The notes under the pieces were generated by a model that did no database searches, was not told where the DNA came from, and saw only the letters and a program-made list of their open reading frames with translations. This document shows positions 47,536-63,189 of a DNA stretch of 64,000 nucleotides, piece after piece. The stretch comes from Roseateles hydrophilus (GTDB lineage Bacteria; Pseudomonadota; Gammaproteobacteria; Burkholderiales; Burkholderiaceae_C), in NCBI RefSeq assembly GCF_026712245.1, contig NZ_JAPPUY010000001.1:1488001-1552000 (forward strand). The letters run 5' to 3'. The translations under genes and the position numbers were made by a program. The number at the start of each line of letters is the position of its first letter. Position 1 is the stretch's first letter.

Positions 47536-47565
47536 AACGCCCCGCCCTGCCGGGGCGTTGTTTTT
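47536..47565 (+). terminator. Rho-independent terminator after the PEP-CTERM gene
   Basis: AACGCCCCG and CGGGGCGTT form a 9-bp stem around the loop CCCTGC, followed by GTTTTT. This is a strong intrinsic terminator. It separates the giant gene/PEP-CTERM unit from the downstream secretion genes, whose start codon is only 23 bp further on, so some read-through or a promoter inside the terminator region is needed for the latter. Confidence 0.85.
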
Positions 47566-47587
47566 GCTCTCGAACCAGGACTGCCGG

Positions 47588-49297
47588 ATGAACCTGCTCG
47601 GCCAACGCCTGCCCCTCGTCACGCCGCTGGGCCGCGCCATGGCGGCCGTGCGCAGCACGCTGGGCTGGGTGGCGTTTTTCAGCTTCTTCGTCAACCTGCT
47701 GGCGTTGACCTCGTCGATCTACATGATGCAGGTCTACGACCGCGTGCTGGCCTCGCACAGCCTGCCCACGCTGCTGGGACTGACGCTGTTCGCGCTGGCC
47801 TGCCTGCTGACGCTGGCGGGGCTGGAGGTGGTGCGCTCGCGGCTGCTGGTGCGCCTGGGCGCACGGCTGGATGCACAGCTCTCCGGCCTGCTGTTCGAGA
47901 AGACGCTGGCCGCCGGCCGCAACAGCCAGGCGCTGCGCGACCTGGACCAGCTGCGCGGCTTCGTCACCGGCAGCACCATGCTGTCGCTGCTGGACGCGCC
48001 GTGGATGCCCATCTACATCGGCCTGGTCTACCTGCTGCACCCGTGGCTGGGCCATGTGGCGCTGCTGGGTGGCGTGGTGCTGTTCCTGCTGGGCCTGTGG
48101 AACGAGCGCGCCACGCGCGCCGCGCTGGCAGAGGCGGGCGCCGAGATGGCAGCCGGCGCGCGCTTCGCCGAGATCTCGGCCCGCAACACCGACGTGATCC
48201 GCGCCATGGGCATGCTGCCCGGCCTTGCGCGGCTGTGGCGCCAGCGCCATGACTACGGCATCGGCCTGCAAGGCCTGGCCAGCGACAAGGCCGCTCTGGT
48301 GGCAGCCTGGGCCAAGTCGGTGCGGCTGCTGCTGCAGATCGCCGTGCTGGGCGTGGGCGCGTGGCTGGTCATCCGCGCCGAGTGCACGGCGGGCGTGATG
48401 ATCGCCGCCAGCATCATCATGGGCCGGGGCCTCGCGCCGCTGGAGCAGGCCATCGGCGGCTGGCGCGGCTTCCTGCAAGCGCGCGAGAGCTATGGCCGGC
48501 TGCGCCAGGAGATCGGCCAGGAGAAGCCGCAGGACGAGCCCATGCCGCTGCCGGCACCCAAGGGCCTGCTGGCCTTCGAGGGCGTGTCTGCCGCGCCGCC
48601 GCAGTCGCGCCGCCTGACGCTGCAAGGCATCGATTTCACGCTGCAGCCCGGCACCTGCCTGGGCATCACCGGCCCCAGCGCAGCGGGCAAGAGCACGCTG
48701 GTGCGGCTGGCCGTGGGCGTGTGGGCGCCGGCCGCCGGCGCCGTGCGTCTGGACGGCGCCCGCATCGACGAGTCCCCGCGCGAGCATGTCGGCCCCCACA
48801 TCGGCTACCTGCCGCAGGACATCGAGCTCTTCCCCGGCTCGGTGGCAGCCAACATCGCACGCTTCGGCGAGGTGGATGCCGAGCGTGTCGTCGAGGCCGC
48901 GCAACTGGCGGGCGCACACGCCATGATCCTGGCGCTGCCCGAGGGCTACGACACCGTCATCGGCCCCGCTGGCGCCAACCTGTCCGGCGGCCAGCGCCAG
49001 CGCATCGGCCTGGCGCGTGCCTTCTACGGCAACCCGCCGCTGATCGTGCTGGACGAGCCCACCAGCAACCTCGACGCCGAAGGCGAGGCCGCCGTGCGCC
49101 AGGGCATCGACGAGATGAAGCGCCGCCAGCGCACCGTGCTGGTGGTAGCCCACCGCCCGGCGCTGCTGGGCGGCACCGACCAGATGCTGGTACTGGTAGG
49201 CGGCCAGATCGTGAAGTTCGGTGCCACGCAGGAACTGATGCCGCAGATCACCCGCAAGAGCGCCCTGGCGCCCGGAGAGGAGGCCGCCCGTGCCTGA
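47588..49297 (+). CDS. Type I secretion system permease/ATPase (PrtD-like ABC transporter)
   Basis: Inner-membrane ABC exporter of 569 aa. The N-terminal half has about six hydrophobic helices, starting with WVAFFSFFVNLLALTSSIYMMQVYDRVL, a hallmark of the PrtD/AprD group, and no C39 peptidase domain. The ATPase half has Walker A GPSAAGKST, signature LSGGQRQRIGLARA and Walker B PLIVLDEPTSNLD. The ATG at 47588 was chosen (AGGA 10-13 nt upstream); a TTG at 47558 would overlap the terminator. It is coupled to the HlyD-type gene by an 8-bp overlap. The giant protein encoded just upstream is the obvious cargo. No TolC-like gene is in the window. Confidence 0.94.
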   Translation: MNLLGQRLPLVTPLGRAMAAVRSTLGWVAFFSFFVNLLALTSSIYMMQVYDRVLASHSLPTLLGLTLFALACLLTLAGLEVVRSRLLVRLGARLDAQLSGLLFEKTLAAGRNSQALRDLDQLRGFVTGSTMLSLLDAPWMPIYIGLVYLLHPWLGHVALLGGVVLFLLGLWNERATRAALAEAGAEMAAGARFAEISARNTDVIRAMGMLPGLARLWRQRHDYGIGLQGLASDKAALVAAWAKSVRLLLQIAVLGVGAWLVIRAECTAGVMIAASIIMGRGLAPLEQAIGGWRGFLQARESYGRLRQEIGQEKPQDEPMPLPAPKGLLAFEGVSAAPPQSRRLTLQGIDFTLQPGTCLGITGPSAAGKSTLVRLAVGVWAPAAGAVRLDGARIDESPREHVGPHIGYLPQDIELFPGSVAANIARFGEVDAERVVEAAQLAGAHAMILALPEGYDTVIGPAGANLSGGQRQRIGLARAFYGNPPLIVLDEPTSNLDAEGEAAVRQGIDEMKRRQRTVLVVAHRPALLGGTDQMLVLVGGQIVKFGATQELMPQITRKSALAPGEEAARA

Positions 49298-50654
49298 AGC
49301 CGCAACCGCCGCCGCCGCACTGCGCGAGCAGGCAATCGCCGCCATGGTGGTGGGCGAGGACAAGGCCGCCGCCGAGACGCGCCGCTGGGTGCGCCTGGGC
49401 CTGCTGCTGCTGGCCAGCACGCTGGGCGTGGCGCTGGTGTGGTCGGCCAGCGTGCCGCTGGCGTCGGCTGTGGTGGGCTCCGGCATGCTCAAGGTGGACT
49501 CCAGCCGCAAGCGCCTGCAGCATGCCGAGGGCGGCATCGTGAAGGAGATCCTGGTGCGCGACGGCGCCCGCGTGACGGCCGGCCAGGTGCTGGTGCGCCT
49601 GGACGAGACGCGGGCCGCCGCCGGCCACGGCGTGGTCACCGGCGGGCGCGACGTGGCGCTGGCCTCGCTGGCGCGGCTGGTGGCCGAACGCGACGACAAG
49701 GCCGTCATCGCCTGGCCGCCGGAGCTCGAAGCACGCGCTGGCGACCAGCAGGTGGCCGAAATCCTGCGCGCGCAGCGCAGCATCTTCGAGTCGCGCCGCA
49801 GCAGCCGGCTGGGCGAGCTGTCCATCCTGGACCAGCAGATCGCCGCGCTGCGCTCCGAGATCACCGGCTACGACAGCCAGCGCCGCAGCAAGGAAGAGCA
49901 GCTGGACAGCCTCAAGCGCGACCTCGAAGGCCTGCTGGACCTGGACAAGACCGGCATGGTCGAGAAAACCCGGCTGCGCGCCACCGAGCGCGACATCGCG
50001 CGCCTGGTGGGCGAACGCGACGAGCTCGTCTCGCGCGCCGCCACCACGCGCACCAGCATCAGCGAAAAGGAGCTGAAGAAGTTCCAGGTGCGCAAGGCCT
50101 TCCAGGAGGACGTGGCCGCCGAGCTGAAGAAGGTGCAGGCCGAGAACTTCGAGCTCATCGAGCGCGAGAGCGCCACCCGCCGCACGCTGGAGCTGACCGA
50201 GGTGCGCGCGCCGGTGGACGGTGTCGTGACCGACCTGCGCATCCACACGCCCGGCGGCAGCATCGCGCCCGGCGAGCTGCTGATGGAGCTGGTGCCCAGC
50301 GACGACAAGCTCGTCGTCGAGGTCAAGGTGCCGCCGTTCGAGATCGACCGCGTGCGCGCCGGGCAGCTGGCCGGCGTGAAGCTGCATGCCTTCAACTCGC
50401 GCTCACTGCCGGAGCTGGACGGCAGCGTCACCTACGTCTCGGCCGACGCCGCGACCGACCCGCGCACCGAACAGTCCTGGTTCATCGCCAAGGTGGACAT
50501 CCCGGCCAGCGAACTCGGCAAGCTGGGCGAAGGCAACCGGCTACAGCCGGGCATGCTGGCCGACGTCTACATCCGCACCGGCGAACGCACCTTCCTGGGC
50601 TACCTGCTGGAGCCGCTGACCGACAGCTTCCGCAAGGCCTGGCTGGAGCGCTGA
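49290..50654 (+). CDS. HlyD-family type I secretion periplasmic adaptor
   Basis: Membrane fusion protein of 454 aa linking the ABC exporter to an outer-membrane channel. One transmembrane helix (about residues 36-58, LGLLLLASTLGVALVW) is followed by a lipoyl-like half with HAEGGIVKEILVRDGARVTAGQVL. A long coiled-coil hairpin (about 150-300) comes next, then the second lipoyl half (VRAPVDGVVTDLRIHTPGG) and a beta-barrel domain. The GTG start at 49290 lies inside the transporter gene, giving an 8-bp overlap and translational coupling. The length matches the PrtE/HlyD family. Confidence 0.94.
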   Translation: MPEAATAAAALREQAIAAMVVGEDKAAAETRRWVRLGLLLLASTLGVALVWSASVPLASAVVGSGMLKVDSSRKRLQHAEGGIVKEILVRDGARVTAGQVLVRLDETRAAAGHGVVTGGRDVALASLARLVAERDDKAVIAWPPELEARAGDQQVAEILRAQRSIFESRRSSRLGELSILDQQIAALRSEITGYDSQRRSKEEQLDSLKRDLEGLLDLDKTGMVEKTRLRATERDIARLVGERDELVSRAATTRTSISEKELKKFQVRKAFQEDVAAELKKVQAENFELIERESATRRTLELTEVRAPVDGVVTDLRIHTPGGSIAPGELLMELVPSDDKLVVEVKVPPFEIDRVRAGQLAGVKLHAFNSRSLPELDGSVTYVSADAATDPRTEQSWFIAKVDIPASELGKLGEGNRLQPGMLADVYIRTGERTFLGYLLEPLTDSFRKAWLER

Positions 50655-57817: not shown

Positions 57818-57983
57818 GCGCCCAGGTGCGACGTCCGGCCGTGGTGGGTTGCCCATGCGTATGCTGGCCGTTGCACCAGCGCCATGAACGGCTGCCGCGA
57901 CAGCACCGCCCTTTCCTGAAGCCGATTGCCGGGCCTGTTGGACGAAGATGCCCCGCCGTTGCGCGCCGTCCCGACGCGCCTCT

Positions 57984-58385
57984 TCAAGCGGTGGAAGTAG
58001 TCGGCTCAGCGGCAGCTTCCGGCACCGCCGCGAGGGTCTTCTCGATCTCGTCGCGCAAGCTCACCACCACGGCATGGAGTGCATTGATCTGCACGTCGAT
58101 GCCGGGGTTCATCAGCGGTGATTCGGCCAGCTTCAGCACGGCCTCGGCCTGTTCCGTGCGACCGTCCAACAGGGCGGTGGCGGCAGCCGTGGTCATCGCG
58201 CAGCGCAGCGTGAAGCTGTGCTGCTGCTGCTGAACTGCGTTGTGCATGGCTAGGCTCAGCGCATGGGAGAGCGCCTGGTAGGCGGCGCCGGCGGCGAAAA
58301 GTTGCCGGCTGCCGCGCAGCAGGTCGTTGACCTGCTGGATCGCATCAACGACCTGATCGTTGGTGGCCGCAGCTTCCTCGGTCAT
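57984..58385 (-). CDS. Reb-like R-body cluster protein, long form
   Basis: Protein of 133 aa whose N-terminal half (NDQVVDAIQQVNDLL, then AAYQALSHALSLAMHNAVQQQQHS and AMTTAAATALL) follows the pattern of the RebB family: a short polar start, an Ala-rich helix with Asn-Ala and a Gln run, then A-V/M-T-T. The second half (residues 75-133) is an additional helix region not present in RebB. Its start overlaps the stop of rebB2 by 4 bp (ATGA), so it belongs to the same translation unit. It may be an assembly or terminating component of the ribbon. Family similarity is by motif only. Confidence 0.7.
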   Translation of the reverse strand: MTEEAAATNDQVVDAIQQVNDLLRGSRQLFAAGAAYQALSHALSLAMHNAVQQQQHSFTLRCAMTTAAATALLDGRTEQAEAVLKLAESPLMNPGIDVQINALHAVVVSLRDEIEKTLAAVPEAAAEPTTSTA

Positions 58386-58621
58386 GACTTCGATGCCGCA
58401 GCGCCCAGCAGGGTGGTGATGGCGCGTGTGGTGACCGCCTGTGCAAGGCTGGTGCCGAGCTGCTGCTGGCTGGAAGCGTTCTGCGCCGCCAGCGCGAGCG
58501 CCTCGGCCGTGGCCTGGTAGAGGGCACCCATCGATGCCGCCGCGGCGTCGCTCAGGACCTGGACATTGGCCTGCGTGACGGCGTCGGTGATCTGATCATT
58601 GACAGAGGTTGGGAAGGCCAT
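58382..58621 (-). CDS. rebB: RebB-family R-body structural protein (paralogue 2)
   Basis: Small protein of 79 aa, about two thirds identical to the paralogue at 58625-58864. It begins MAFPTSVNDQITDAVTQANV, with the RebB (PF11747-like, 'killing trait') pattern: ITDAVTQxNV, GALYQATAEALALAAQNA, QQQ and AQAVTTR. R-bodies are insoluble protein ribbons that roll into hollow cylinders and unroll on pH or ion change, best known from Caedibacter, where RebB is a main subunit. AAGG lies 9 bases before the ATG and the start follows the previous stop by 3 bp. No signal peptide; cytoplasmic assembly is expected. Confidence 0.88.
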   Translation of the reverse strand: MAFPTSVNDQITDAVTQANVQVLSDAAAASMGALYQATAEALALAAQNASSQQQLGTSLAQAVTTRAITTLLGAAASKS

Positions 58622-58624
58622 GGA

Positions 58625-58864
58625 TCACACCTTGTCGGCAGCGCCGCCCAGCAGCACCTGGACACAGCGGGTGGTCACCGCCTGGGCGATCTCATTGCCC
58701 TGCTGCTGCGCCGCAGTGGCATTGTGGGCAGCGTTTGCCAGGGCCTGTGCGGTGGCTTGGTAGAGATTGCCCATCGCCATGGCGGGCGCGTCGCCCAGCA
58801 CCTTGACGTTGGATTGCGTCACGGCGTCCGTGATCTGGCTGTTGACTGCGGTTGGGAAGGCCAT
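58625..58864 (-). CDS. rebB: RebB-family R-body structural protein (paralogue 1)
   Basis: Small protein of 79 aa with the RebB pattern ITDAVTQSNVKVLGD, MGNLYQATAQALANAAHNA, AAQQQGNE and AQAVTTR. It is a likely structural subunit of an R-body ribbon. AAGGA is visible about 9 bases upstream of the ATG. It precedes its paralogue by 3 bp and follows the small Ala-rich protein gene after a 61-bp gap. The two copies keep almost the same length and differ by about 26 substitutions, so they could be co-assembling subunits as RebA and RebB are in Caedibacter (inference). Confidence 0.88.
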   Translation of the reverse strand: MAFPTAVNSQITDAVTQSNVKVLGDAPAMAMGNLYQATAQALANAAHNATAAQQQGNEIAQAVTTRCVQVLLGGAADKV

Positions 58865-58925
58865 GTGATTCCTATCCTTCTTGAGGGACTAACACACGCT
58901 CGCCACTGGCTTTGCAGGCCAATCG

Positions 58926-59138
58926 TCAAGCCGATTGAGAGAGCTGTTGCACCACCTGGGCCACCGATGCATCGGCAGCGGCTACGGCGTTCTCGGCAGC
59001 TTCCATGGAGAGAACATGGGCAGGCGCCGCGGCGACGTCAGGCTCCGTGGTGGCTTCCGACGGGCTCGTGGCTGCGGCAGATCCTGCTGCGGGAGCCGAT
59101 GGCTCTGCAGCGGCGTCGGGGGCTTCAGGGGTGTCCAT
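58926..59138 (-). CDS. Small Ala/Ser/Pro-rich protein at head of the R-body cluster
   Basis: Protein of 70 aa starting at 59138 (MDTPEAPDAAAEPS); AGGA is 8 bases before it. An ATG three codons earlier at 59147 has its AGG directly against the codon and is less likely. The N-terminal 35 residues are low-complexity Ala/Pro/Glu/Thr. The C-terminus (SMEAAENAVAAADASVAQVVQQLSQSA) is an amphipathic Ala-rich helix. It does not match RebB clearly, but co-orientation and spacing suggest it is part of the cluster. Function unknown. Confidence 0.6.
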   Translation of the reverse strand: MDTPEAPDAAAEPSAPAAGSAAATSPSEATTEPDVAAAPAHVLSMEAAENAVAAADASVAQVVQQLSQSA

Positions 59139-59275
59139 GCGCTGCATCCTGCCCAGTCAGTTGGCGGCCTGCATCCTGCTGATTGATGATGCCGCGTTGT
59201 GAACTCGTTAGATAGGCATGAACAGAGCGAGCTCCGACGGACGCGTCACGCCGGAGCATCGAGTGCGCGGCGGCT
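59139..59275 (-). promoter_or_regulatory. Leader region of the R-body cluster
   Basis: These 137 bp between the GH2 stop and the first Reb-cluster gene are the only room for a dedicated promoter of the R-body genes. The sequence GCAGGATGCAG occurs twice on the minus strand; the first copy would start a five-codon open frame (MQAAN) ending 12 bp before the next ATG. Promoter boxes were not identified with confidence. Confidence 0.4.
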
Positions 59276-61993
59276 CTACTTCGGCTGCGTGGTGATCGCG
59301 ACCTCCGCCGGCGCCAGCCCGTCGGCCTCGGCGCGCACGAGCAGCCGGCCCGCCACGCCGGCACGCCCGCGGACGATGGCCAGCGCCTGGCCGCTGAACG
59401 CGCGACGGCTCAGCGACGGGAAGGCCTCGAAGCTGGTCGCATCGCCGTTGTCGGTGGCGACGATGTCGCCCGGGCCGTCCAGATGAAAGCGGATGCGCGC
59501 GTCGGCGCGCGGCACGGTGCGGCCTTGCGCGTCGGTGATGCGCAGCGTGACGAAGCTGAGATCGCTGCCGTCGGCGGCGATGGTGCCGCGGTCGGCCTGC
59601 AGCGCCAGACGCGTCGCGGCGCCGGCTGTGGCGACGCTGGCGGTGGCCCAAGGCTGGCCGGCCTTGTAGGCCTGCAGCGTCAGCGTGCCGGGCTCGTAGA
59701 TCACGTCGTCCCAGCGCAACCGGTATTCGCCTGGGCCTTTCTTGCGCTTGCCCAGCGAGCGGCCGTTCAGAAACAGCTCGGCCTCGTCGCCGCTGGTGAA
59801 AGCGTGCACAGGCGTGACCTGTCCGACCCGCTCGGGCCAGGTCCAGTGCGGCAGCAGGTGGGCCATGGGCAGCTCGGGCCGCCAGCGCGACTGGTAGAGC
59901 CAGTAGCGATCCTTGGGGAAACCGGCGAGGTCGACGATGCCGGAGTAGGAGCTGCGCGCCGCGTAGTAGGGCGTGGGCTCGCCGAGGTAGTCAAAGCCGG
60001 TCCAGACGAACTCGCCGGCGACGAAGGGGTGGGCGTCCAGCGCCTTGAACACCTTGTCGGCGGACGAGCCGAAGTCCACCGCATACAGCTCGTAGCCGCT
60101 GACCTGCCGCGCGGCCGAGTCGCCGCCGCGGCCGTCGCGCGTGATGGAGCTCTGCGCGGGCGTGACAGGGAAGTGATAAACGCCGCGGCTGCTGAAGGCC
60201 GAAGCCGTCTCGCTGCTGAGAATGAGCTTGCCGGGGAAGGCTGCGCGGAAGTTGGGGTACTGCGGCGGCGTGCGGATGCGGTCGGTGCCGATGAACTCGG
60301 GGTCCTGGCGTATGCCCTCGCCCTGGTAGTTGAGGCTGATGACGTCCACCTCGGCGGGCAGCGGCATGTCGGCCTTGGCGAAGTTCATCGCCGTGGTGGT
60401 GGGGCGCGTCGGGTCTTCCTCGCGAGCGATGGCGTGCAGGCGGCGCGCCACGGCAGCACCTTCGGCGCCGGTGTACTGCTCGCCCACCTCGTTGCCGATG
60501 CTCCACATGACGATGGATGGGTGGTTGCGGTCGCGGCGCAGCATGGCGCGCAGGTCGGGCTCGTGCCAGTCCGGGAAGATGAGGTGGAAGTCCAGCGGCG
60601 TCTTCTTGCGCTCCCAGCTGTCGAAGATCTCGTCCACCACCAGCAGCCCCAGGCGGTCGCACAGGTCCAGGAACTCGGCCGCCGGCGGGTTGTGCGCCAG
60701 GCGGATGGCGTTGGCGCCCATGGCCTGCAGGATCTGCAGCTGCCGCTCGGCGGCGCGCAGGTTGAAGGCGGCGCCCAAGGCGCCCAGGTCGTGGTGCAGG
60801 TTGACGCCCTGCAGCTTCACCGGCTGGCCGTTGACGTGCAGGCCGGTGTTGGCATCGAAGCGCAGCGTGCGGATGCCGAATGGCGTTTCATGCCGGTCCA
60901 CCTCGCCGGCCGACGCGAGCAGCCGCGTGACGGCCACGTAGCGGTGCGGCTGCTGCTGCGGCGCCGGCCCCCACAGCCGCGGCCGGGGAACGTGCAGCGT
61001 GGCGGTCAGCTCGCCGTGCCCGCTCGCTGGCACGGCCAGGCCCCGCTGGCGCACACGGGCGACGGCGCGGCCCTCGGGGCGGCCGTCGGCACCCAGGGCG
61101 TAGAGCTCGGTGAGCACGTCCACGGTGGCGGCGCGGGCGCCGTCGTTGTCGACCTGCACGCGCACCGCGACGGTGGCCCGCTCGGGCGACACCTGCGGCG
61201 TCGTCACCGTCGTGCCCCAGTGGGCCACATGCACCGGGGCGGTCTTGGTCAGCCAGACGCTGCGGTACAGCCCGGCGCCCGGGTACCAGCGGGCCGACTC
61301 GGGCGGGTTGTCCAGGCGGATGACGAGCTGGTTGGCCTCGCCAGGGCGGGCCCAGGGCGTCAGGTCCAGCCGGAAGGAGTTGTAGCCATAGGGCCAGCCG
61401 CCCACGAGGCGGCCGTTGAGCCAGACGGTCGCATGCGACATCGCGCCATCCACGTCCAGGAACAGCGAGCGGCCTCGGTCACTGGCCGGGATGTCCAGCG
61501 CGCGGCGGTACCAGACCGGCCCCCAGGTCTGCAGCCGGCCCATGCCGCCATAAGGGCCGGTCTCCAGGAAGGGCCCGGCGATGGCCCAGTCGTGCGGCAG
61601 CGTGACGGCCTGCCAGCCGCTGTCGTCAAAGCCCGGGCGCACGTAATCCACCTCGCTGCCGGGGTGGCCCTCGGGGCGGCGGTGGCGCTTCGCCGGGTCG
61701 CGGATGAAGGGGTTCGCACTGGGCAGGATCCAGGGCTTGAGCACACGGCCCGGCGCGCCGGCCATGGCCTTGACGGCTTCGTCGGGGCGCGCGTCGGCCA
61801 CCTTGCCGTCGGCCGAGGCGGTCACCTCCGGCCGCAGGTCGTACATCAGCTGCGCCGTGGCGCCGGCCGGGTCGCCGCGCTGGAAGCGCCAGCCGGCGGC
61901 CAGCTCGATGCGCTCGCGTGCGAGGGCCGGCAGCACGACCATCAGGCTCAGGGCCAGACCGGCGGCGAGGCGCCGCCCGAGGGTGCGAAACAT
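59276..61993 (-). CDS. Glycoside hydrolase family 2 enzyme (beta-galactosidase-like)
   Basis: Exported glycosidase of 905 aa with a signal peptide (cleavage near PALARE). The sugar-binding domain has DSGWQAVTLPHDWAI, MSHATVWLNGRLVGGWPYGYNSF and WYPGAGLYRSVWL, all standard for GH2. The TIM barrel carries the acid/base Glu502 in MWSIGNEVGEQ and the nucleophile Glu595 in LSSETASAF. C-terminal Ig-like domains follow (ADGSDLSFVTLRITDAQGRTVP). Exo-acting beta-galactosidase is the best guess; beta-glucuronidase or another beta-glycosidase cannot be excluded. AGGAG precedes ATG 61993. The gene is divergent from the LacI regulator gene and shares its operator region. Confidence 0.92.
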   Translation of the reverse strand: MFRTLGRRLAAGLALSLMVVLPALARERIELAAGWRFQRGDPAGATAQLMYDLRPEVTASADGKVADARPDEAVKAMAGAPGRVLKPWILPSANPFIRDPAKRHRRPEGHPGSEVDYVRPGFDDSGWQAVTLPHDWAIAGPFLETGPYGGMGRLQTWGPVWYRRALDIPASDRGRSLFLDVDGAMSHATVWLNGRLVGGWPYGYNSFRLDLTPWARPGEANQLVIRLDNPPESARWYPGAGLYRSVWLTKTAPVHVAHWGTTVTTPQVSPERATVAVRVQVDNDGARAATVDVLTELYALGADGRPEGRAVARVRQRGLAVPASGHGELTATLHVPRPRLWGPAPQQQPHRYVAVTRLLASAGEVDRHETPFGIRTLRFDANTGLHVNGQPVKLQGVNLHHDLGALGAAFNLRAAERQLQILQAMGANAIRLAHNPPAAEFLDLCDRLGLLVVDEIFDSWERKKTPLDFHLIFPDWHEPDLRAMLRRDRNHPSIVMWSIGNEVGEQYTGAEGAAVARRLHAIAREEDPTRPTTTAMNFAKADMPLPAEVDVISLNYQGEGIRQDPEFIGTDRIRTPPQYPNFRAAFPGKLILSSETASAFSSRGVYHFPVTPAQSSITRDGRGGDSAARQVSGYELYAVDFGSSADKVFKALDAHPFVAGEFVWTGFDYLGEPTPYYAARSSYSGIVDLAGFPKDRYWLYQSRWRPELPMAHLLPHWTWPERVGQVTPVHAFTSGDEAELFLNGRSLGKRKKGPGEYRLRWDDVIYEPGTLTLQAYKAGQPWATASVATAGAATRLALQADRGTIAADGSDLSFVTLRITDAQGRTVPRADARIRFHLDGPGDIVATDNGDATSFEAFPSLSRRAFSGQALAIVRGRAGVAGRLLVRAEADGLAPAEVAITTQPK

Positions 61994-62014: not shown

Positions 62015-62103
62015 GGTATCGCTCTCAACGGCGTTCCGGTCTGTCCATCGCCTGGGAAAACACCAAACAGTGTGGTTTGGTCGACAAATATGATAGCGAT
62101 ACC
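62015..62103. promoter_or_regulatory. Operator-like inverted repeats between the GH2 and LacI genes
   Basis: Two half-sites in opposite orientation, GGTATCGCT (62015-62023) and AGCGATACC (62095-62103), are exact reverse complements 71 bp apart. Around the second, TGATAGCGATACCA (62091-62104) is an imperfect palindrome with a central CG, as expected for LacI/GalR-family operators. Between them ACCAAAC-N6-GTTTGGT (62062-62081) is a third inverted repeat. A TATGAT at 62089-62094 could be a -10 box of the lacI gene. The layout fits autoregulation and control of the GH2 gene by the encoded regulator, possibly through a DNA loop. Confidence 0.6.
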
Positions 62104-62127
62104 AATGACGTCAGGACCACACTGCTC

Positions 62128-63189
62128 ATGAAGTTGACCGAAGCCGGGATGCCGCCAGCGCCGCGCCCACGCCCGGTGCTGCGGGCGCGACTGGACGCCG
62201 TCGCTCGCGAGGCCGGCGTCAGCCTGGCCACGGTGGACCGGGCGCTGAACCGGCGCCCGGGCGTCAGCACGCGGACGCTGCAGCGCGTGCAGGCCGCGGC
62301 GTCGCTGCTGGCGATGCGCAGCGACGCAGCCACGGCGGCGCAGCCCCGCGAGCGCTGCTGGCTGCTGTGCTTTCTGCTGCCCACCGGGGCCGGCCCCTTC
62401 GTGGCGCAGGTGCGCGAGGCGCTGCAGGCGCTGGCACCCTGGTTGGCGGCGCAGCAGACGCGGGTCGATGTGCGCACGACCGACGCGGCCGCGCCGGCGG
62501 CTGCGGCGGCCGCCGTGCGCCGGCTGCGCGGGCAGTACGACGCGGTGGTGCTGATGCTGGCCGACGCGCCGGCCGTGCGTGACGCGGTCGCGCGCATGGC
62601 CGGCGACGGCACCTGCGTGATCACGCTGGCGTCCGACATCGCAGCAGCGGCCCGCCAGCACTTCGTCGGCATCGACCACCAGGCCGCCGGGCGCACCGCC
62701 GCTGCGCTGCTCAGCCGCAGCCTCGCGGGGCGTGCGGGCCAGATCGGCATCCTGCTGGGCTCGCCGGCGCTGCTGGGCCAGGCCCAGCGCCTGGCCGGGT
62801 TCCAGGAGCGCATGGCACCCGAGCAGGACAGGCTCGAACTGCTGGCACCGCGCGTGTCGGGCGGGCGGCCCGAGCTGGCGCGGGCGCTGCTGGCGCAGCT
62901 GCGCGCCGAGCAGCCGGCGCTGGTGGGGCTGTACAGCATCGAGGCTGGCGACGACGGGCTGCACGGGGCACTGCAGGGCAGCGGCCTGGCCTGGGTGTGC
63001 CACGAGCTGACGCCGCACACCCGCGCGGCACTGCAGGACGGCACTGCGAGCGCGGTCATCGGGCAATCGGCCGCGCAGCAGACGCAACTCGCCTGCCGCT
63101 GGGCGCTGGCCCGGCTGGCGCGCCAGGCGCCGCCCGCCGACGCCACGCCGCCGCGCATCGAGATCTACCTGAAGGACAACCTTCCATGA
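62128..63189 (+). CDS. LacI-family transcriptional regulator
   Basis: DNA-binding regulator of 353 aa. The N-terminal helix-turn-helix reads LDAVAREAGVSLATVDRALNRRPGVS, the classic LacI HTH and hinge start. A periplasmic-binding-protein-like effector domain follows (YDAVVLMLADAPAV, then HFVGIDHQAAGRTAAALL and GQIGILLGSPALLGQ). ATG 62128 was chosen for the normal length and because upstream sequence contains the operator-like repeats; a frame further upstream is not supported. The last base pairs overlap the GH43 start (ATGA), so regulator and enzyme are translated together. A sugar released from a plant polysaccharide is the likely effector (inference). Confidence 0.92.
   Translation: MKLTEAGMPPAPRPRPVLRARLDAVAREAGVSLATVDRALNRRPGVSTRTLQRVQAAASLLAMRSDAATAAQPRERCWLLCFLLPTGAGPFVAQVREALQALAPWLAAQQTRVDVRTTDAAAPAAAAAAVRRLRGQYDAVVLMLADAPAVRDAVARMAGDGTCVITLASDIAAAARQHFVGIDHQAAGRTAAALLSRSLAGRAGQIGILLGSPALLGQAQRLAGFQERMAPEQDRLELLAPRVSGGRPELARALLAQLRAEQPALVGLYSIEAGDDGLHGALQGSGLAWVCHELTPHTRAALQDGTASAVIGQSAAQQTQLACRWALARLARQAPPADATPPRIEIYLKDNLP

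Follow-up and report, generated by a model that had tools for sequence, protein, structure and literature searches.

A four-gene cluster of Roseateles hydrophilus is probably a horizontally acquired, self-contained reb cassette of compact form. Two short RebB-family proteins, R1 and R2, would build an R-body-type ribbon, and a long Reb protein, R3, together with a small non-Reb protein, RebL, would serve as dedicated assembly partners in place of the HP1.1-HP1.4 proteins of classic clusters. RebL is a name proposed here for the small non-Reb protein of compact clusters. Classic clusters have the Group 1 arrangement of reb genes (HP1.1-HP1.4) after Raymann et al. (PMC3583457). Judged by its gene content, the cluster represents a compact layout in its own right, equipped with two specific accessory proteins, rather than a plain reb cluster missing parts. 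The DNA analysed, termed the window, is 64,000 nt long (NZ_JAPPUY010000001.1, positions 1,488,001-1,552,000), and all coordinates are numbered within it.

The four open reading frames of the original prediction are all present on the minus strand. The leader gene, rebL (58926-59138), encodes a 70-residue Ala/Pro-rich protein and was defined from its reading frame, the upstream sequence, comparison with its family and a structure model. It is followed after 61 bp by R1 (58625-58864) and R2 (58382-58621), primary and second RebB-family proteins of 79 residues each. R1 and R2 are separated by a 3-bp gap, and R2 overlaps R3 (57984-58385, 133 residues) by 4 bp, exactly the coupled operon spacing that had been predicted. 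R1 and R2 share 68% identity over 78 residues, in keeping with the earlier estimate of two thirds. An alternative start of RebL at 59147 would give a protein of 73 residues. The start at 59138 is preferred, as it has AGGA 8 nt upstream and yields an 'MDT' N terminus like that of the compact locus L131.

R1, R2, and R3 match the RebB family PF11747 with 98.4, 68.8, and 42.0 bits (E-values 2e-28, 4e-19, and 1e-10), all above the curated cut-off of 24 bits, whereas a Pfam search with the window RebL gave no hit. Apart from R1-R3, the whole genome contains one sub-threshold RebB match (12.7 bits, E 0.6), and none of 14 control genomes has a RebB signal. Together, the family scores, the genome search and the controls place the cluster far beyond chance. 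RebB proteins are characterized by prolines flanking a (D)QITD motif, a KxxxD/E motif, a conserved tyrosine and a QQQ motif (PMC13430693, text). Read by eye, R1 contains FPTAVNSQITD, KVLGD, LYQ, and AAQQQG. R2 has the same motifs, but with Q in place of K, and R3 keeps NDQVVDA, YQ, and NAVQQQQ and lacks the first proline.

The distribution of the layout was assessed by comparing R1 with one genome per species, which gave 448 stretches with relatives. The best 80 were kept, and a Reb profile derived from R1 served to map them. Among these best 80 of 448 loci, 48 contain an HP1.1 relative in the stretch, 14 are compact, and 18 are neither. Most of the 48 HP1.1-bearing loci show the Group 1 arrangement. 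The compact layout consists of two or three short Rebs (74-84 residues), a longer Reb bearing a helical tail (R3), and RebL, all adjacent; in the compact scan loci, the long Reb has 115-148 residues and fits the R3 profile. Compact loci were chosen by their Rebs and R3, independently of RebL. The 14 scan loci (L005, L010, L012, L020, L021, L023, L028, L029, L036, L041, L054, L059, L063, and L075), four further loci from whole-genome searches with the R3 alignment (L131, L144, L147, and L148) and the window make a total of 19. The window cluster has the features proposed for the compact type: short Rebs, R3 and RebL adjacent, and HP1.1 absent. Conservation of the four-gene set in relatives, proposed earlier as a check, is thus borne out in 18 other loci, although the place of the small gene moves.

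Taxa with compact clusters include Comamonadaceae, Rhodanobacteraceae, Bradyrhizobium, Novosphingobium, Polaribacter, Acidobacteriota, and Melioribacteraceae. The compact clusters that record titles put outside Pseudomonadota (L005, L054, L020, L012, and L059, titled Acidobacteriota, Melioribacteraceae, or Polaribacter) point to a wide transfer of the cassette. The third protein of the Polaribacter locus, L059, is an R3, scoring 104 bits with the R3 model against 33 with the HP1.3 model; this locus is absent from alignments A1-A3, the tree, the leave-out test and the genome-wide HP1.1 count. L058, one of the 18 scan loci in neither class, looks compact, but its contig ends before any R3, and it is counted outside the 19 loci and inside the 16 genomes examined for HP1.1. 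The public record of L041 names Candidatus Eremiobacteraeota, and a genome search puts it in the Dyella family. It is probably a mislabelled or contaminated bin, and the Eremiobacteraeota phylum is therefore left uncounted.

R3 was aligned with 17 relatives, which show 26-54% identity to the window R3 and a conserved tail with the pattern AEAVLKLAESPL.NP.... The structure model predicts C-terminal helices at residues 77-87 and 96-120 (mean pLDDT 78, pTM 0.49), in agreement with the extra C-terminal helix foreseen for the longer Reb-like protein. No solved structure was found by sequence (best chance match E 0.028), and a Foldseek search with the R3 model returned nothing at E <= 0.001. In alignment A2, the R3 tails take two forms that differ by a three-residue indel. 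The form tracks whether the RebL gene lies before or after R3 in 18 of 18 loci (8 and 10), and L059 agrees by eye; since the members are related and fall into few clades, the 18 loci are not independent cases, and a p-value for them is overstated.

The relationship of R3 to classic proteins bears on a rival account, which we regard as unlikely. It takes the cluster for a reduced classic Group 1 cluster that has lost HP1.1, HP1.2, and HP1.4, with R3 a worn HP1.3 and the leader gene unrelated or no gene at all. In profile comparison, the Reb domain of R3 is indeed nearest HP1.3 (99.2%, E 2e-19), followed by primary Rebs (98.1%), HP1.4 (97.0%), and HP1.2 (93.4%); the R3 profile has no match to HP1.1. 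A tree was built from 110 Reb domains over 72 columns by a quick method that leaves many forks open, with 14 HP1.4 rows dropped for gaps. R1 adjoins the primary Group 1 Rebs in this tree, which also suits the reduced-cluster account. Against it, a starred branch separates HP1.3 and HP1.4 from all other Reb domains, including the R3 rows. An unsupported branch has all 14 R3 rows on the same side; the 13 rows other than L012 are grouped with an SH-aLRT value of 91. Across lineages, neither R1 nor R2 falls into a single group.

The same account is opposed by RebL, for which a reading frame is found in all 19 compact loci. In 17 of them its score is clear; in the window and in Polaribacter, it is assigned by place and pattern more than by score. 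The protein starts with a mostly Pro/Ala-rich or charged region and ends in a helix with the approximate pattern A(M/V)xxA(E/D)xxVxx(A/V)V. Its gene stands before R1 in the window, L036, L023, L131, L020, and L010, between R1 and R2 in L005 and L054, and after R3 in the other eleven loci. In the structure model, disorder is followed by a single helix at residues 40-69. By tens of residues, pLDDT is 94 and 90 in the last two, 76 in the fifth and 48-64 in the earlier ones.

A RebL model of 12 members read by hand was run over 21,555 stop-to-stop ORFs. It gave E < 0.001 only in compact clusters, with the next match at E 3.6, and matched the L131 locus, which is not among its members. Four loci unseen by the model (L131, L144, L147, and L148) all have a clear RebL, against none of six non-compact loci. 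L059 was likewise absent from the model, and the ORF that immediately follows R3 there comes top among 39 ORFs of the locus (E 0.0032); over the whole ORF set, an 18-member model gives this candidate E 1.8, and two ORFs of classic loci outscore it (L015, E 0.019; L067, E 0.089). The candidate is poor in Ala, which argues that the RebL pattern is more than Ala content. When one lineage at a time was left out and 22,026 ORFs were ranked, the members of eight of ten lineages all came out at the top: L036, L023, L020, L010, L063, L012, L131, and the pair L005/L054 each ranked first. With the eight Rhodanobacteraceae members left out, seven took ranks 1-9 and L028 rank 95. In a whole-genome search with the 18-member model, each of six compact genomes has exactly one match, and each of six others (G003 and G009, which belong to the same genus, plus four classic controls) has none; only the absence elsewhere is informative, since the RebLs of the six positive genomes are in the model.

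The window RebL is among the most divergent members. Left out, it ranks 7 of 22,026 (E 3.7), and it tops the 51 ORFs in the vicinity of the cluster (E 0.0086); with a model of seven upstream-type members, it ranks 53 (E 29). Codon-position GC lends no support to the window RebL as a gene (GC3 0.62). This weak score and missing codon support favour the reduced-cluster account, in which the leader may be no gene. As the score is insufficient, the assignment draws on three other features: the gene immediately precedes R1, which is also its position in L036, L023, and L131; the helix pattern is present; and the protein shares the 'MDT' start of L131. In three pairs of relatives, dN/dS of RebL is 0.225, 0.125, and 0.195, compared with 0.06-0.23 for R1 and R3 and 0-0.20 for R2 in the same pairs. 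RebL is thus under purifying selection in all three pairs, a further point against the reduced-cluster account.

No curated family reaches its cut-off for the RebL members compared (eight proteins against Pfam, four against NCBIfam and four against PHROGs); the best of the scattered PHROGs matches is phrog_12492 for L023 (E 0.0013). Two possible origins within classic clusters were discarded. For RebL as a split-off piece of HP1.3, profile comparison gives a probability of 1.7%, despite a loosely similar Ala-rich helix in HP1.3 tails, and profile comparison shows no kinship of RebL to HP1.1, HP1.2, HP1.4, or the Reb domain. The earlier description of the third and leader proteins as uncharacterised components holds, as the leader and the relatives compared belong to no family above cut-off. 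The two proteins define a separate reb layout. RebL recurs in distant bacteria and seems to have gone unnoticed.

Classic partners are missing from the compact loci. HP1.1 is found in 0 of the 14 compact scan loci, compared with 48 of all 80 (the best 80 of 448), and the window genome (G000) has no HP1.1 match at E <= 1. Genome-wide, HP1.1 occurs in none of 16 compact genomes, including that of L058, and in five of five classic controls; the 16 leave out L059, L144, L147, and L148, and some are metagenome bins that may be incomplete. A single recent loss would not leave all 16 genomes without HP1.1, which speaks against the reduced-cluster account. The HP1.2, HP1.3, and HP1.4 proteins of two plasmids have no match at E <= 1e-3 in the 12 kb around the cluster, where R1, R2, and R3 are the only Reb-like ORFs. 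Neither HP1.1 nor adjacent HP1.2-HP1.4, which mark Group 1 synteny after Raymann et al., thus accompanies the window cluster. HP1.1 and HP1.2 of Eleftheria terrae (L089:10155-11591), conserved partners in classic clusters, themselves have no Pfam or NCBIfam match at E <= 1.

The original prediction of no known Reb regulator beside the cluster also stands, and the classic partner is absent as well. Group 2 and Pseudomonas synteny is marked by an adjacent sigma factor and Crp-type regulator, together with HP2.1 and HP2.2; the neighbours of the window cluster are an esterase, a GH2 glycosidase and then a LacI-type gene. Neighbour families were compared in 15 loci (the window, 13 others and L058). 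None beyond Reb and RebL is common to at least three of them, except for ORFs that overlap reb genes in other frames. Within the cassette, there is no toxin-like or regulator gene.

We also consider it improbable that the compact Reb polymer is some other helical assembly (a storage form, a scaffold or a developmental inclusion) rather than a killing ribbon. Such a role would fit the short Rebs, which lack the charged 'domain 4' of the domain scheme in the text of PMC13430693. It would also fit the lack of toxins: a Pfam search of the window shows no toxin-like gene beside the cluster, as had been noted from the start, and none is common to the compact clusters of the 15 loci. However, the signature motifs of R1 (FPT..., QITD, KxxxD, and QQQ) are intact, and classic reb clusters have no identified toxin either, according to the text of PMC3583457. 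The short Rebs, R1 included, do not have the extended charged C terminus seen in classic Rebs, so the polymer could differ from a classic R-body.

The preferred reading, a self-contained cassette, further holds that it was acquired horizontally. The cassette occupies a segment of 1,458 bp (57818-59275) between the convergent stops of a SASA-domain carbohydrate esterase (PF03629; 55844-57817, plus strand) and a glycosidase with GH2 domains in Pfam (59276-61993, minus strand), both outside the system. GH2 has the same direction as the cassette, and its stop lies 137 bp upstream of the RebL start. Beyond GH2 lies a LacI-type gene (62026-63189, Pfam), probably a sugar regulator; the ORF next to it resembles, by eye, a further glycosidase. 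In another genome of the genus (G009, locus L128), the esterase and GH2 genes are convergent with their stops 4 bp apart and nothing between them; GH2 is 79% and the esterase 73% identical to the window proteins. GH2 is also present in G014 (75%) and G019 (73%), in stretches that do not contain this esterase. Because the flanking genes of G009 stand 4 bp apart, the cassette was inserted here, and the polysaccharide context is incidental. The predicted embedding in a polysaccharide-degradation region is therefore correct for the neighbours, which are real, but not as a functional association.

The segment has a GC content of 66%, compared with 75% in the esterase and 72.5% in GH2. GC3 is 0.81-0.82 in R1-R3 and 0.92-0.94 in three resident genes. 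Within the genus, 2 of 20 genomes carry RebB genes. Strong R3 matches, in counts that all include the centre genome, are found in 2 of 399 genomes of the order (E <= 1e-8 admits five, of which three are weaker than 1e-15) and 1 of 398 in a phylum sample (E <= 1e-12 admits six, five of them no better than 1e-16). At E <= 1e-17, R3 has matches in 8 of 197 genomes of the Dyella family and in one each among 396 genomes of the phylum to which L005 belongs, 248 of the L010 family and 249 of the L063 family. The empty site, the contrast in GC and GC3 and the sporadic distribution indicate that the cassette is horizontally acquired. A comparison of the two insert ends found no shared or inverted 10-mers of the kind expected for mobile-element ends.

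The second RebB-positive genome of the genus, G003, has a classic-looking reb cluster with HP1.1 (C23:345578-348315; L085-L088 and L139), so two reb types occur within one genus. A phage origin was set aside, as R1 has no match in 50,697 phage records and neither alignment A1 nor R1 has one in IMG/VR. Separately, PHROG family 32040, whose function is unassigned, matches R1-R3 with E-values down to 8e-18, so some virus-derived set holds a Reb.

That the cassette is decayed or silent in this genome, with no product now, is most improbable: the rarity of RebB genes in the genus (2/20) and of strong R3 in the order (2/399), the divergent RebL and a scan of the cluster that found no promoter-like or terminator-like sites, a kind of scan that tells little at this GC, would suit decay, but all four frames are open, plausible ribosome-binding sequences precede RebL, R1, and R2 by eye, R1-R2-R3 are tightly coupled, and R1 is 85-86% identical to its counterparts in L036 and L023. 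As a speculation, the position behind GH2 in the same direction might allow read-through from a sugar-induced promoter.

For the self-contained cassette, we propose the following mode of action. By analogy with their family, R1 and R2, as short Ala-rich helical Rebs, would polymerise together into a coiled, insoluble R-body-type ribbon. R3 could join or cap the polymer through its Reb domain and would present a helical tail that the ribbon Rebs lack. RebL, which co-occurs with R3, may be a partner dedicated to this system; its simplest role would be to act with R3 in assembly or nucleation. The R3-RebL pair stands in the position that HP1.1-HP1.4 have in classic Group 1 clusters. As suggested by Caedibacter, the ribbon might extend when its surroundings change, for example on ingestion by a grazing protist, with an effect on others. 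The killing or membrane rupture named in the original prediction would likewise be an extrapolation from other R-body systems.

A bolder version, offered tentatively and with more doubt than confidence, sees the cluster as the smallest complete R-body system, with four genes in 1.2 kb. R3 and RebL would replace HP1.1-HP1.4, and RebL, a new partner family, would bind R3 at its helical tail and thereby nucleate the ribbon or set its size. If so, R3 and RebL would have co-evolved, as the tracking of RebL place by the tail indel would reflect. The assembly of R-bodies and the accessory genes needed for it are questions that a compact four-gene cassette, with its conserved non-Reb partner, would make testable in a single 1.2-kb construct. 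It could also supply a small actuated protein ribbon for engineering, and RebL together with R3 provides a marker for recognising the compact subtype in genomes.

Elsewhere in the window, a single open frame of 6,965 residues (25875-46772, plus strand) is followed by genes for an ABC transporter and an HlyD-type protein (47558-49297 and 49290-50654, Pfam). This arrangement resembles that of a giant protein secreted by the type I route, together with the genes for its export. The DNA of the long frame contains only one tandem repeat scoring at least 200.

Among known R-body systems, the rebABCD cluster of Caedibacter taeniospiralis (pKAP298, L091) encodes two PF11747-type Rebs of 114 and 105 residues, which, by length, we take to be RebA and RebB. 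This cluster differs from the window in lying on a plasmid, and no R3-like protein or RebL-like ORF is seen in the 3.4 kb of L091. The Caedibacter RebA/RebB and Pseudomonas RebP1/RebP2 are held to be the ribbon proteins, and RebC of Caedibacter is a small protein thought to be regulatory and said to be in the operon (PMC13430693, text). Homology of RebL to RebC was considered, but RebC has no entry in the gene table of L091. The Pseudomonas aeruginosa PA14 cluster comprises RebP1/P2, RebD, RapA, RcgA, and FecI2, and, like the window, combines tandem ribbon Rebs with an accessory protein; RapA, likened here by description, co-localises with the ribbon (PMC8322103, text). Unlike the window cluster, which no such genes adjoin, PA14 has its own sigma factor and regulator. 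In Azorhizobium caulinodans, the non-Reb gene AZC_3784 inside the reb operon is essential for R-body formation, according to the text of PMC5527310, and provides a functional precedent for RebL, likened by description only. That operon also has a regulator gene, rebR, a point of difference from the window cluster. According to PMC13430693, R-body synthesis does not depend on the conserved group 3 proteins; conservation within a cluster is therefore no proof that a protein is needed.

The 2026 survey omitted co-localised proteins without Reb homology and reported 1,406 synteny patterns (PMC13430693, text), among which the Rebs of compact clusters may well be included. R3 does not fit its secondary group S2, described in the text as having a Pro-rich tail. 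No description of the compact layout or of RebL was found in the text consulted, as distinct from figures and supplements, of PMC3583457, PMC8322103, and PMC13430693. Literature searches likewise gave none, nor did they turn up a ribbon described for any compact cluster.

The closest comparison is with the Group 1 clusters themselves. Classic members usually have at least three Rebs of about 88-99 residues, followed in order by HP1.4 of about 60-80, HP1.3 of about 100-200, HP1.2 of about 116 and HP1.1 of about 355 residues. The HP1.3 tail is Pro-rich in many classic clusters, whereas the compact R3 tail is helical and not Pro-rich. R1 is near Rebs outside the compact group, with 82% identity over 71 residues (L007) and 88% over 51 (L066). 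In the Group 1 clusters on plasmids of Azospirillum brasilense (L092) and Eleftheria terrae (L089), adjacent RebB genes are followed by a long Reb-domain protein, the same order as in the window.
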